Assembly (NCBI RefSeq): GCF_005960665.1 | Contig: NZ_CP040676.1 | Span: forward strand, 940,501 to 1,004,500 | Origin: Exiguobacterium mexicanum | GTDB taxonomy: Bacteria; Bacillota; Bacilli; Exiguobacteriales; Exiguobacteriaceae | Reading direction: 5' to 3' | DNA length: 64,000 nt | Made by a program: the position numbers and the translations under genes | Shown here: in pieces, positions 18,829 through 24,045 of the stretch | Layout of the letters: every line of letters starts with the position of its first letter | Numbering within the stretch: position 1 is the first letter of the stretch | Notes under the pieces: generated by a model | Seen by the model: the letters and a program-made list of their open reading frames with translations, nothing else | The model's database searches: none | Told to the model about the DNA's origin: nothing

Positions 18829-19230
18829 ATGTGGTGGCGCGATGACACGGATGAAGATGAGGCGGGATCTCTCTATAAACATATTCTCGAGCTAGAGGCT
18901 AGGATTGCGAAGCTGATCGCCCATCAAGTCAGGGTGCGTCGCCTGCTGATGCAAGAATCGTCGGCCGCGGCGACCGAACAAATCATTGCGCTGCAAGCGG
19001 AAGTCGATCATTTTTTATCGCTATTGCGACAAGAGCGAGCGGAAGCGGTCGATCGCTACGACCGCTTGCGTCTCGAACAGACGTTAGGACGTGTGCGGCA
19101 GGTGGTCGATCAACCGACCCGGCCTTTGTCCGAATGGGACACGATCGAGCAAGCACTCGCACTCGAAGTCGAACATTTGCGTCGTGTTCTTTCCTATGAA
19201 CGACAGCGTCGCGCCGAGGAGGAGTGGTAA
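18829..19230 (+). CDS. Coiled-coil protein of unknown function
   Basis: 133 residues, family not recognised. It is charged and almost entirely helical: heptad-like stretches YKHILELEARIAKLIAHQ and IALQAEVDHFLSLLRQERAE suggest a coiled coil. There is no membrane segment or signal peptide, so it is probably cytosolic. The start has a GAGGTG ribosome site. It is the first gene after an ECF-type promoter, and its stop overlaps the ATG of the NfeD gene, so it belongs to the flotillin operon and may work with it; that role is inference. Confidence 0.75.
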   Translation: MWWRDDTDEDEAGSLYKHILELEARIAKLIAHQVRVRRLLMQESSAAATEQIIALQAEVDHFLSLLRQERAEAVDRYDRLRLEQTLGRVRQVVDQPTRPLSEWDTIEQALALEVEHLRRVLSYERQRRAEEEW

Positions 19231-19751
19231 TGGAATCGTTAGATCAGCTGTATTGGTGGGTACTCATCATCGCCGGTCTCGGTACATTTTTGTACATGTT
19301 ATTTTCAGATGCGTTTGATTTATTCGATGGTTGGTTCAATCCAGCGGTCATCCTGTCATTTTTAGCACTCGGTGCGGGCATCGGCCTCATTTTGAACGCG
19401 CTCGCCCATGTGTCCCCGATGATCGGGCTCGCCGTCGCACTCGTCGGATCGTTCGCGCTCACGACGCTCCTGTACTTATTCGTCCTCTTGCCGTTATCGA
19501 ACGCGGAAGAATCGATCGGGATGACCGATGAATCGCTCGTTGGACTTGTCGGACGGTTGACCGTCCCCGTTCCGGAAGGCGGTTACGGGGAAGTACTCGT
19601 CGAATCGGTCATCGGTTCGATTTTAAAGACGGCTCAAAGTGTGGACGGCAAAGCGATTCCGAGTGATCGACGGGTCATCATCATCGAAGTCGAACGAAAC
19701 ATTGCGGTCGTCATGGAATATGACGAGCCGACAATCCGAAAGGAGTTTTAA
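19230..19751 (+). CDS. yuaF: NfeD-like membrane protein, YuaF-like
   Basis: 173 residues. It resembles YuaF, the NfeD-type partner encoded beside flotillin FloT. Three membrane helices (about 8-28, 38-58, 65-92) are followed by a cytosolic OB-fold domain (about 105-165, GLVGRLTVPVPEGGYGEVLVE). No ClpP-type protease domain. The ATG overlaps the previous stop (TAATG) with GGAGG upstream; a GTG at 19224 is less likely. floT starts 3 bases after it. Confidence 0.88.
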   Translation: MESLDQLYWWVLIIAGLGTFLYMLFSDAFDLFDGWFNPAVILSFLALGAGIGLILNALAHVSPMIGLAVALVGSFALTTLLYLFVLLPLSNAEESIGMTDESLVGLVGRLTVPVPEGGYGEVLVESVIGSILKTAQSVDGKAIPSDRRVIIIEVERNIAVVMEYDEPTIRKEF

Positions 19752-19754
19752 CTT

Positions 19755-21269
19755 ATGAGCACAGCCATATTAGCCAGTATTATCGTCGGGGTGATTTTGC
19801 TCGCCTTGATTTTCGTATTCGTGTTGAAGTATCGCACGGTCGGACCAGATGAGGCGCTCATCGTCACCGGCAGTTACTTAGGGAAAAAGAACGTCCATAG
19901 CGACGCGTCGGGCAACCGTGTAAAGATTATCCGCGGGGGCGGAACGTTCGTCTTGCCGGTGTTCCAGCAAGCGGAACCGCTCAGCCTTCTTTCGAGCAAA
20001 CTTGAAGTGACGACGCCGGAAGTGTACACCGAGCAAGGCGTACCGGTCATGGCGGACGGTACGGCCATCATCAAAATCGGTGGCTCGATCAGCGAGATCG
20101 CCACGGCGGCCGAGCAGTTCCTCGGCAAACCGAAAATCGAACGCGAGAACGAGGCGAAAGAAGTGCTCGAAGGTCACCTCCGTTCCATCCTCGGTTCGAT
20201 GACAGTTGAAGAGATTTATAAGAACCGCGATAAGTTCTCACAAGAAGTCCAACGCGTCGCCTCACAAGACTTGGCGAAAATGGGGCTCGTCATCGTGTCG
20301 TTCACGATTAAAGATGTTCGTGACAAGAACGGCTATCTCGAATCACTCGGGAAACCACGAATCGCGCAAGTGAAACGCGATGCTGATATCGCAACGGCCG
20401 AAGCGGACAAAGAGACACGCATCAAACAAGCAGAAGCGATGAAAGACGCGAAGAAAGCTGAACTCGAACGGGCTTCGGAAATCGCAGAAGCCGAGAAAGA
20501 GAACCAGCTCCGCATCGCCGCCTATCGTCGTGAGCAAGACGTCGCCAAGGCCCGGGCCGACCAAGCGTATGAACTTGAAGAAGCCCGCGCCAAACAAGAA
20601 GTCACCGAGCAACAGATGCAAGTCCAAATCATCGAGCGTCAAAAGCAAATCGAGCTCGAAGAGAAAGAAATCATGCGTCGTGAGAAACAATACGATTCAG
20701 AAGTGAAGAAAAAGGCCGACGCCGACCGCTATGCGATCGAACAGTCAGCGGAAGCCGACAAGGCGCGTCAAATCGCCTCGGCCGATGCCGAGAAATATCG
20801 TATCGAAGCGGAAGCGAAAGCTGACGCCGAACGCGTTCGTCTCGCCGGTGTGGCCGAAGCGGACTCGGAACGGGCCAAAGGGGAAGCCGAAGCCGAGATT
20901 ATCCGCTTGACGGGTCTCGCCGAAGCCGAAGCGAAACAAAAAATCGCCGAAGCGTTCGAACAGTATGGACAGGCTGCCATTCTCGACATGGTCGTCAAGA
21001 TGCTTCCGGACTACGCGAAACAGATTGCAGCACCGCTTGGCAATATCGACAAGATCACGGTCGTCGATACGGGCAGCGGGAAAGATGGGGGTGCCGGCAA
21101 AGTCACAGGCTACGCTACAGACTTGATGGCATCGCTCCAACAGACGCTCAAAGCGTCGTCAGGAATCGACATGAAAGATTTACTCGACAATTTTGCCGGG
21201 AAAGGCAACGTCCAGCCGAGCGCGAATCGCGAATTGAGCGAATCGACGTTCGCCGCGACCGAAGAGTGA
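19755..21269 (+). CDS. floT: Flotillin FloT (YuaG)
   Basis: 504 residues. A membrane-associated SPFH protein that organises membrane microdomains and influences envelope stress and membrane fluidity. An N-terminal hydrophobic segment (about 5-27) is followed by the SPFH/band-7 domain (about 30-200), then a long Ala/Glu/Lys-rich coiled coil (about 205-400, repeated EAEA/KAEA motifs), and a C-terminal oligomerisation region (AAILDMVVKMLPDYAKQIA). Last gene of the ECF-promoter operon, ended by a clear terminator. Confidence 0.95.
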   Translation: MSTAILASIIVGVILLALIFVFVLKYRTVGPDEALIVTGSYLGKKNVHSDASGNRVKIIRGGGTFVLPVFQQAEPLSLLSSKLEVTTPEVYTEQGVPVMADGTAIIKIGGSISEIATAAEQFLGKPKIERENEAKEVLEGHLRSILGSMTVEEIYKNRDKFSQEVQRVASQDLAKMGLVIVSFTIKDVRDKNGYLESLGKPRIAQVKRDADIATAEADKETRIKQAEAMKDAKKAELERASEIAEAEKENQLRIAAYRREQDVAKARADQAYELEEARAKQEVTEQQMQVQIIERQKQIELEEKEIMRREKQYDSEVKKKADADRYAIEQSAEADKARQIASADAEKYRIEAEAKADAERVRLAGVAEADSERAKGEAEAEIIRLTGLAEAEAKQKIAEAFEQYGQAAILDMVVKMLPDYAKQIAAPLGNIDKITVVDTGSGKDGGAGKVTGYATDLMASLQQTLKASSGIDMKDLLDNFAGKGNVQPSANRELSESTFAATEE

Positions 21270-21275
21270 GCCGAG

Positions 21276-21305
21276 AGCCACAGACAATCGTCTGTGGCTT
21301 TTTTG
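21276..21305 (+). terminator. Terminator of the floT operon
   Basis: Perfect ten-pair stem (21276-21285 with 21290-21299), four-base loop, six T. Confidence 0.93.
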
Positions 21306-21342: not shown

Positions 21343-21369
21343 TCAAACTCGATCAGTTTCTGACGATAA
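21343..21369 (+). promoter_or_regulatory. Sigma-D (flagellar) like promoter of the lipoprotein/MCP operon
   Basis: TCAAA at 21343-21347, 14 bases, GACGATAA at 21362-21369, close to the flagellar-sigma consensus TAAA...GCCGATAT. It lies about 40 bases before a chemotaxis operon, which suits that sigma factor. Confidence 0.5.
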
Positions 21370-21407
21370 GGGAGATGTCAGACCATTAGAGAGAGGAAGT
21401 AGCTATT

Positions 21408-22379
21408 ATGAAGAAATCACTCATCATCGGCTTGTTGGCCGCATGTGTGACTTGGTTGCCCGGTTGTCAGTCTGTCATCGACCAACCGGAACAAACCGTG
21501 GAAACACGTCAATCGATGGGCGTCGTCTTGTCCGATGTTGGTCTCGGGGACCAATCGTTCAGCGACGCGGCGATGCGCGGCATGGGGCAACTCCGGGAGA
21601 CAGGGAAATGGTTCGTCGACTATCGCGAGCTTGCCGAGACGGAGACATATAAAGCGGGGTTCGAACAGCTCGTCGCGGACGGACATGATGTTATCATCGG
21701 TCTTGGTTTCGCATGTCAGACGGATCTTGAAGCGGTGGCGGCCGAACATCCAGAGCAACAGTTCGCGTTGATTGATGCCGTATCGACGTTACCTAACGTC
21801 ATCTCGGTGACGTTCCAAGAGACGGAAGGCAGTGCACTCGCCGGGGCAGTCGCGGGGCTCGAGACGGAATCGAATAAAATCGGTTTCATCGGGGGTGTCG
21901 ACAACGAGCTGATTCAAAAATTCGGGACCGGCTTCGAGCTCGGTGCAAAAGGCGTGAATGAAGACGTAACGATGCTCGTCGATTACGCCAACGATTTTGC
22001 CTCGCCTGAAATCGGACGTAAGTTGGCAGAGAAACAGATTGAAGCCGGAGCAGACGTGCTGTACGCCGCTGCAGGACTGACAGGGGTCGGTGTCTTAGAA
22101 GCAGCGGAACGGAACGGCGTGAAAGCGATTGGCGTCGATAGCGACCAATCGATGATCGCACCGGACGCGGTCATCACGTCGATGTTGAAACAAGTCGATT
22201 TGGCCATCGTCGAAATCGCGGATCGGGTCGAAGCGAAGGCGTTCAACGCTCACGTCGAACTCGGGATCGATCAAGGCGGTGTCGGTTTGGCCGCTCTTCG
22301 TCGTGTCCAATGGGATGACGACGAGACAAAACGGTTCGAGGCGTTTCAGAAACAGTTGATGGAGGGGACGCTGAAATGA
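21408..22379 (+). CDS. BMP-family substrate-binding lipoprotein
   Basis: 323 residues. Resembles the basic membrane protein (Bmp/Med/PnrA) family of ABC-type binding proteins, whose known ligands are purine nucleosides. A lipoprotein signal is present: a basic start MKKS, a hydrophobic core and lipobox LPGC with Cys20. The body has family marks: [16 protein letters not shown] near residue 39, [27 protein letters not shown] and VDSDQS. No permease or ATPase genes lie beside it; instead it overlaps a chemoreceptor gene by 4 bases. It therefore probably serves as a ligand-binding partner for chemotaxis. The ligand itself is an inference from family. Confidence 0.85.
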
Positions 22380-24019
22380 GCTTACGGAAACGGTTCATCT
22401 TTTCGACCGTGTTCACGGTCTTATTGATTGTCTTGATGATGAGTTATGTCTTGTCGACGTTGAATCGTCTGCAAACTTATAACGAGCAGTACGGCACCCA
22501 GATGATTGAGTTGTCCCAACTCGAGACGTCGCTCTTGCAGGAGCAGTCCCTGTGGACCTCGCTCGGTGAGCAGATGAGCCAATCGACGCTCACGCAGCTC
22601 GAGCGGATTCGGACGACAAACACGGAGACGTTTACGACATTGAAACAGACATATCTTATTCCTGAATTTGCGAACCACCTCGAACGTGCGACGATGAAGT
22701 ATGAGCGAATCGGAGCCGAGGTCGAGGCGGCCGAGGCCGGCGGAATCGCCGCCCGGATTCAAGCGGCGAAGCTTGAAGGGGTATTGAACGATGTGAATAC
22801 GCTCCTCTTGAAAAATGGAACATTCTACGAGGCGTTACAAGCCGAGGCGGCGAGTGAGACAAAACGTCTCCTGCTCGTGTCCATATTGTTGACGGTCTTT
22901 GTCATCGTCGCACTCAGTGTATACAACTTCTTCTTCGCCCGCTCGATCACCCACCCGCTCGAACGCAATGTCGAGGCGGCGGAAGCAATCGCGGCCGGAC
23001 GATTGATCACGCTGCCGGATTCGACGCGACGTGATGAAATCGGACGCTTAGAACGAGCGATGCGGGAAATGACGATGTCGCTCCAGACGGTCATCGGTTC
23101 CATCCGTGTCACGTCGATGAAAGTGAACGATATGACAGAGACGGCGGCTGCTGAGAACGAGGCCGTGGTCAGTACGACATCGAACATCACGAATGCGGTC
23201 GATGAGATGGCGAACGGGGCCCAGTCGATTGCGACCGAACTGCAAGAGACACTTGAATCGGTCGGCATCATGGCGACCTCGTTCGAGACAAGTTTGAACC
23301 AGACGAAGCAGACGACCGAACAGACGTCTGAGATGACACGCGAAGTCGCAGCCGGCATCGAGACGTTGACGGACCAGGAAGCGATTTTAGCACGTTCGAG
23401 CGAACGTAACGCATCGCTCGTCAACCGGATGGATGATTTCGCCCGGAAAACAGAAGAAATCGAAAAAATGGCGAAGCTCGTGGAAGATGTCGCCGCCCAG
23501 ACGAACTTGCTCGCCTTGAATGCGGCCATCGAGGCTGCACGGGCAGGGGAGGCAGGACGAGGTTTTGCAGTCGTCGCCAGCGAAGTGAAGAAATTGGCCG
23601 AGGAGAGCAACGTGGCGACACGTTCCATCTTTGGTGTCGTCCAGACGATCCGGGACGAGGTCGTCCGCTTGACGGACATGGTCGAAGAGTCGAGTCGGGA
23701 ACAGACGGCACAGCTCGAGGCGTTCGGAATGACGAAGCAGGCGTTCAACCGAATCCATGACCGCACGGACCACGTCGCCTCGTTTGTCAGTACGATTGAA
23801 CGCGAGATGGTCGCGTCGAGTTCGGAAGTGACGAACGTCTTGAAACGGGTCGAGGAAGTGAGCGGTGTCACCGAGGAACTTGCGGCGGGGAACGAAGAAG
23901 TCGCAGCCTCGATGAAAGAGCAGCAAGCGAGCTTCGATCAGATTTTCGCTTTGATGCAAGAGTTAGAAGGACAAGCCGCGGCACTCGCGAGCCAAGTCCA
24001 ACATTTTGAAGAGCACTGA
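22376..24019 (+). CDS. Methyl-accepting chemotaxis protein
   Basis: 547 residues. Two membrane helices (about 7-29 and 163-187) flank a helical extracellular domain of about 135 residues resembling four-helix-bundle sensors. A HAMP domain follows (about 188-240). The cytoplasmic signalling domain carries the conserved hairpin tip ([16 protein letters not shown] near residue 377) that contacts CheA/CheW. No C-terminal methylase-docking pentapeptide is apparent. It starts with ATGA overlap on the lipoprotein gene, so the two are translationally coupled and probably form one sensory unit. Confidence 0.95.
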
Positions 24020-24045
24020 GACAAGTTTCGGCTTGTCTCTTTTTT
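24018..24045 (+). terminator. Terminator of the lipoprotein/MCP operon
   Basis: Eight-pair stem (24018-24025 with 24032-24039), six-base loop, T-run; the stem overlaps the MCP stop codon. Confidence 0.88.

Follow-up and report, generated by a model that had tools for sequence, protein, structure and literature searches.

What is the role of a binding lipoprotein of the Bmp/PnrA family (hereafter BMP) whose gene overlaps that of a methyl-accepting chemotaxis protein (MCP)? The question arises from a locus of Exiguobacterium mexicanum (assembly GCF_005960665.1, contig NZ_CP040676.1, positions 940,501–1,004,500), a 64,000-nt stretch that we call the window and whose positions are used as coordinates below. 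The relatives of the window that we found are Exiguobacterium species, with 76–97% identity. We consider it probable that the two genes form a dedicated chemosensor that depends on a binding protein, probably detects nucleosides and is expressed as a single unit under the control of sigma-D.

The lipoprotein gene (21408..22379, + strand) encodes 323 amino acids. Residues 39–316 match the whole-protein profile PF02608 with 195.5 bits (cut-off 24.1; E = 1.3e-57), and relatives are found in the PDB (7x0r, 9q1u, 6shu). The protein begins with a lipoprotein signal peptide and the lipobox LPGC (21408..21467, +), whose cysteine, Cys20, is invariant among 16 aligned paired BMPs. Its description as a BMP/PnrA-like lipoprotein with a Cys20 lipobox in the first-pass annotation was accurate. 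The MCP gene (22376..24019, +) encodes 547 amino acids, with two membrane helices, a HAMP domain (residues 186–237, 22931..23086, +; E = 3e-11) and an MCP signalling domain (residues 346–499, 23411..23872, +; E = 6.6e-36). The stop codon of the first gene and the start codon of the second share the sequence ATGA (22376..22379, +), the four-base overlap already reported. A terminator-like hairpin, GCCACAGAC-AATC-GTCTGTGGC, followed by a T-run closes the upstream flotillin gene (21277..21305, +), and a second hairpin with a T-run follows the MCP gene (24018..24045, +). As these signals, read from the sequence, end the flotillin gene and the MCP gene, the pair looks like one isolated transcription unit. 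The two genes are thus overlapping and apparently co-transcribed, but not fused; of the earlier wording "fused by operon", only the second part holds. Upstream, the region 18829–21269 encodes a coiled-coil protein, a 175-residue membrane protein and the flotillin; the membrane protein occupies an NfeD-like position and matches no Pfam family.

The pair is conserved well beyond this genome, as the neighbourhood survey proposed by the first-pass annotation reveals. Each of the 38 genomes sampled from the family, which represent two genera, has a pair-type BMP gene, directly followed by an MCP gene with the same type of sensor. In the second genus, the pair keeps the ATGA overlap and is located at a different site, behind deoC (L150, 3872–7292). 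The product of this deoxynucleoside catabolic gene is deoxyribose-phosphate aldolase, and the pair behind it apparently forms a separate transcription unit. Searching 399 Bacilli genomes with the MCP sensor region identified relatives in other families; a BMP gene was directly upstream of 34 of the 40 matches whose surrounding DNA was analysed, and the six without it are among the weaker matches. A search of 399 Bacilli genomes with the alignment of paired BMPs returned 83 genomes with a BMP scoring at least 394 bits, all other listed matches scoring 305 bits or less. The MCP gene is directly downstream in 83 of these 83 genomes (80 by coordinates and three, L127, L133, and L134, by direct reading of the DNA): the binding protein and receptor genes are co-inherited. 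By count of the listed codes, these genomes come from 19 genera in 12 families; the family of the window contributes 38, and the other 45 are from the remaining 361 genomes. The distance between the two genes varies from the four-base overlap to tens of bases, and the upstream genes differ by lineage while the pair persists. Nucleoside genes were not found as recurrent neighbours of the pair: deoC of the second genus is the only case, the other upstream genes being unrelated. The arrangement had been described as unusual. We found no report of it, but it is common in Bacilli.

Three other possibilities concerning the distribution of the pair were rejected. Chance adjacency of a BMP and an MCP gene is incompatible with a linkage of 83/83. 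A spread beyond Bacilli was discarded, as the ten matches from other classes in a sample of the phylum reach only 321–341 bits; among eight non-Bacilli matches fetched, seven lie beside an ATPase and a permease gene, and the remaining one has neither these nor an MCP match. A plasmid-borne module was also dismissed, the plasmid matches being limited to distant BMPs and to MCP signalling domains of the generic kind. A divergent BMP–MCP pair, in genome G178 (L149/L123, near C1:2289499-2292000), falls outside the pair-type subgroup.

The ligand pocket of the lipoprotein was compared with that of Borrelia BmpA. In the alignment, residues F51, D123, F172, F197, V243, D244, and K261 correspond to Phe27, Asp98, Phe151, Phe176, Val224, Asp225, and Lys242 of BmpA, which are essential in that protein (PMC13325309). 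Six of them, D123 to K261, are encoded within 21774..22190 (+), and the stacking Phe51 belongs to a specificity loop (residues 43–53, 21534..21566, +) that maps to Asp19-Phe27-Asn28 of BmpA. The lipoprotein therefore has the two stacking phenylalanines (F51 and F197) and the ribose-side Asp and Lys (D123, D244, and K261) of the PF02608 pocket, and these positions are retained in nearly all paired BMPs. The specificity loop is conserved within the pairs and differs as a group from that of the transporter BMPs: it carries D43, G47, Q49, mostly Ser52 in place of Asn, and Asp53 in place of Gln. The ligand of the paired BMPs may consequently be shifted. Since the pocket residues are kept but the loop that tunes base recognition differs, the ligand is likely a nucleoside, although which one cannot be said. 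The earlier guess of a nucleoside is supported by this retention of the PnrA/BmpA pocket residues (PMC13325309). In the closest solved structure, Lbp of C. thermocellum (PDB 7x0r), the density was fitted with guanosine (PMC9601137). Lbp is named for laminaribiose although its structure was fitted with guanosine (PMC9601137), and sugar-binding annotations of Bmp proteins may be misleading. A structure prediction of the lipoprotein was of low confidence (pLDDT 63) and was set aside.

The same residues bear on a rather unlikely variant of our proposal, in which the pair is a binding-protein-dependent chemosensor for something other than an ordinary nucleoside: a nucleoside with a modification, a different ribosyl compound or a small molecule of unrelated type. 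It would account for the group-wide difference of the loop at D43, G47, Q49, S52, and D53, and PF02608 also includes an atrazine-binding protein and a putative vitamin B6-binding one. Against it, nearly all pairs retain both stacking phenylalanines as well as the Asp and Lys on the ribose side, and a vitamin-B6-type identity was rejected, the corresponding model scoring 59 bits for a cut-off of 400. The divergent pair of G178 differs in this respect: its BMP is devoid of one stacking Phe and of the pocket Asp and Lys, and it may sense another ligand.

The expression signals link the pair to motility. A sigma-D-type promoter, TCAA-N15-GACGATAA, was identified by pattern match upstream of the lipoprotein gene (21343..21369, +), at the place where a flagellar-sigma-like promoter had been noticed. 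All 31 loci of the family that we checked have its CGATA core ahead of the pair, and 24 of them show the full pattern. Outside the family, a sigma-D-like match lies within 250 bases upstream of 26 of 36 pairs, for 2.2 expected from first-order Markov sequences; the reversed pattern was found upstream of none of these 36 pairs, and no sigma-D-like promoter precedes any of 18 transport BMPs. The Exiguobacterium genome encodes CheA, a FliA/SigD sigma factor scoring above the curated cut-off and 12 MCPs. The strain thus possesses the chemotaxis apparatus whose absence, according to the first-pass annotation, would speak against a chemosensor. With the co-inheritance observed in 38/38 and 83/83 genomes and the presence of CheA and SigD, its idea of a dedicated two-protein chemosensor is probably right. 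Between the promoter and the lipoprotein gene, a block of the 5' leader, TGTCAGACCATTAGAGAGAGG (21376–21396), is strongly conserved across the genus. We found no other copy of this block in the genome within three mismatches, and the z-score of 0.93 gives no support for folding of the leader RNA. Candidate roles for the block are an operator, a CsrA-type site or a ribosome-binding context.

We then compared paired and transporter BMPs. In a quick tree with some long branches, 56 paired BMPs are all on one side of a branch with a support of 100, separated from 18 transport BMPs. The MCP partners mostly cluster in the MCP tree, which has many long branches and on which the paired label needs three changes. 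For 28 representative pairs, distances in the two partner trees are correlated (Spearman rho of 0.73, for a maximum of 0.35 in 2000 permutations); this correlation must partly reflect shared species history and shows co-inheritance, not contact. The two groups also differ in their genomic context. An ATPase and a permease accompany all 18 other BMPs examined in Bacilli (16 loci), as is usual for transporter members of PF02608, and the paired lipoprotein is not encoded with them. The neighbours of the pair that we checked are the flotillin gene, an RNase HII/HIII-type gene, competence genes and a DNA polymerase III subunit gene, none of these flanking genes being an ABC gene. Likewise, no relative of the nucleoside-type ATPase and permeases of the genome was detected in the 6-kb flanks of 14 Exiguobacterium orthologues, in line with the early remark that neither permease nor ATPase lies nearby. 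Only one further Bmp gene exists in the genome; it belongs to a complete BMP-ATPase-permease-permease operon at a distance of 0.57 Mb, and its product is ~39% identical to the paired lipoprotein. In the second genus, two tandem BMP genes precede the nucleoside-type ABC operon at one locus (L145, G030:C1:1875000-1884000), versus one in the genome of the window.

The presence of this complete nucleoside-type ABC operon leaves room for a role of the lipoprotein mainly as a second binding protein of a transporter encoded elsewhere, the MCP sensing transport-related occupancy. One lipoprotein could serve both partners, and the chemotaxis binding proteins of E. coli, which also serve transporters, offer a parallel. 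We nevertheless judge this role very unlikely, as the operon has a BMP of its own and the paired BMPs form a separate group, with sigma-D-like promoters that are absent from transporter BMPs.

We also examined the sensor part of the MCP. AlphaFold2, run on residues 1–240 with 15 alignment rows, predicted four long helices in the arrangement expected of a four-helix bundle (pLDDT 79.9, pTM 0.58), the ectodomain extending approximately over residues 27–165 (22454..22870, +). The Foldseek matches of this model, NarQ, PcaY_PP, Vc1313, Tar, and LytS-N (5xsj), are all weak (E > 0.001), and no Pfam sensor-domain family was detected across 15 members; the assignment to four-helix bundles, which is based on the model and on these matches, is accordingly a prediction. 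A motif of helix 4, [RK]xxGxx[NS]D-x11-Y (residues 132–151, 22769..22828, +), is present in 54 of 56 paired MCPs and was found in no unpaired MCP that our script could read (a few were not readable). Moreover, K108, G135, D139, and Y151 are identical in 28/28 representative MCPs. The MCP of G178 keeps the motif although its partner BMP has lost pocket residues; this single example is consistent with a motif that serves docking or signalling, not contact with the ligand. In LytS, helices H3 and H4 are bound by the partner protein XylFII (PMC9769921), which makes the surface carrying the helix-4 motif a reasonable docking candidate. As a pointer to docking of the lipoprotein, this motif is only suggestive. 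That the genes are merely co-transcribed, the four-helix bundle sensing a ligand of its own directly, as some four-helix-bundle sensors do (e.g., the PcaY_PP and Tar structures), and the lipoprotein acting separately, is the reading to which we give least credence, in view of a linkage that holds in 83/83 genomes of 12 families despite changing upstream genes, of the correlated partner trees, of an ectodomain type that tracks the lipoprotein and of the G178 motif kept despite the lost pocket of its partner.

In the dedicated chemosensor that we favour, both genes would be expressed as one sigma-D-controlled unit. On the outer side of the membrane, to which it is anchored, the lipoprotein would clamp a nucleoside between its two phenylalanines. 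It would also dock on the MCP encoded with it, the contact site lying in the four-helix bundle of the ectodomain and perhaps formed by helices 3 and 4. Ligand binding would then shift the signalling state passed to CheA. In this scheme, we infer that the ligand is a nucleoside, that the lipoprotein docks on the MCP and that the response is taxis. The altered specificity loop, the lost pocket residues of the G178 BMP and the lack of recurrent nucleoside genes nearby weigh against it.

Several known systems resemble parts of this scheme. The nucleoside-binding lipoproteins PnrA, BmpA, BmpD, and Lbp belong to the same family and have the same pocket residues as the paired lipoprotein; however, they are regarded as transporter binding proteins, whereas members of the paired subgroup carry a distinct loop sequence and lie beside an MCP gene instead of ABC genes. 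Med of Bacillus (PDB 2hqb), a comK activator, is a Bmp-family protein described in a non-transport role. It is distant from the lipoprotein (E = 4.6e-11) and, to our knowledge, is not paired with an MCP. In E. coli, the binding proteins that assist receptors serve ABC transporters, are not co-encoded with an MCP and belong to non-Bmp families, unlike those of the pair. As would be the case for the pair, an external binding protein of the soluble type loads the ligand and acts on a four-helix-bundle MCP ectodomain in MBP-Tar, RBP/GBP-Trg, DppA-Tap, and LsrB-Tsr (for the principle, see PMC6321045). XylFII-LytS of Clostridium (PDB 5xsj) similarly combines a binding protein with a four-helix-bundle sensor (PMC9769921), but it detects D-xylose through a histidine kinase, and its binding protein belongs to another family. 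In Pseudomonas aeruginosa, the MCP CtpL is activated by the binding protein PstS, as we propose here (PMC6321045); the ligand is phosphate, the ectodomain is of the HBM type and PstS is a transporter binding protein.

The kind of mechanism is already known. It is established that binding proteins activate the E. coli receptors, P. aeruginosa CtpL (through PstS) and Helicobacter pylori TlpB, and the same has been suggested for Bacillus subtilis (PMC6321045); at least 13 families of substrate-binding proteins are reported to stimulate receptors (PMC9602780). Our literature search combining the BMP family or PF02608 with chemotaxis, the coverage of which stops short of the main review (10.1016/j.csbj.2021.03.029), found no Bmp–MCP pair. 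What appears to be new is the Bmp–MCP module itself, together with its wide occurrence in Bacilli, the separation of its BMPs from those of transporters and the sigma-D-type promoters that precede it. A broader proposal, in which a Bmp subfamily split from transporter lipoproteins and evolved with one type of MCP as a two-gene sigma-D module, constituting a widespread dedicated nucleoside chemosensor of Bacilli, is in our opinion evenly balanced.

Soil bacteria, Bacillus (B. subtilis and B. pumilus) among them, are attracted by nucleosides that roots secrete; as of 2024, no specific nucleoside MCP had been characterized in rhizobacteria (PMC11120975). The module provides candidate nucleoside-receptor genes in about 19 genera of Bacilli. 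If the proposal is true, nucleosides, for instance those from roots or lysed cells, gain a specific chemoreceptor. Its confirmation would extend binding-protein-dependent chemotaxis to the Bmp family and would provide a clean case of a binding protein dedicated to sensing rather than to transport.
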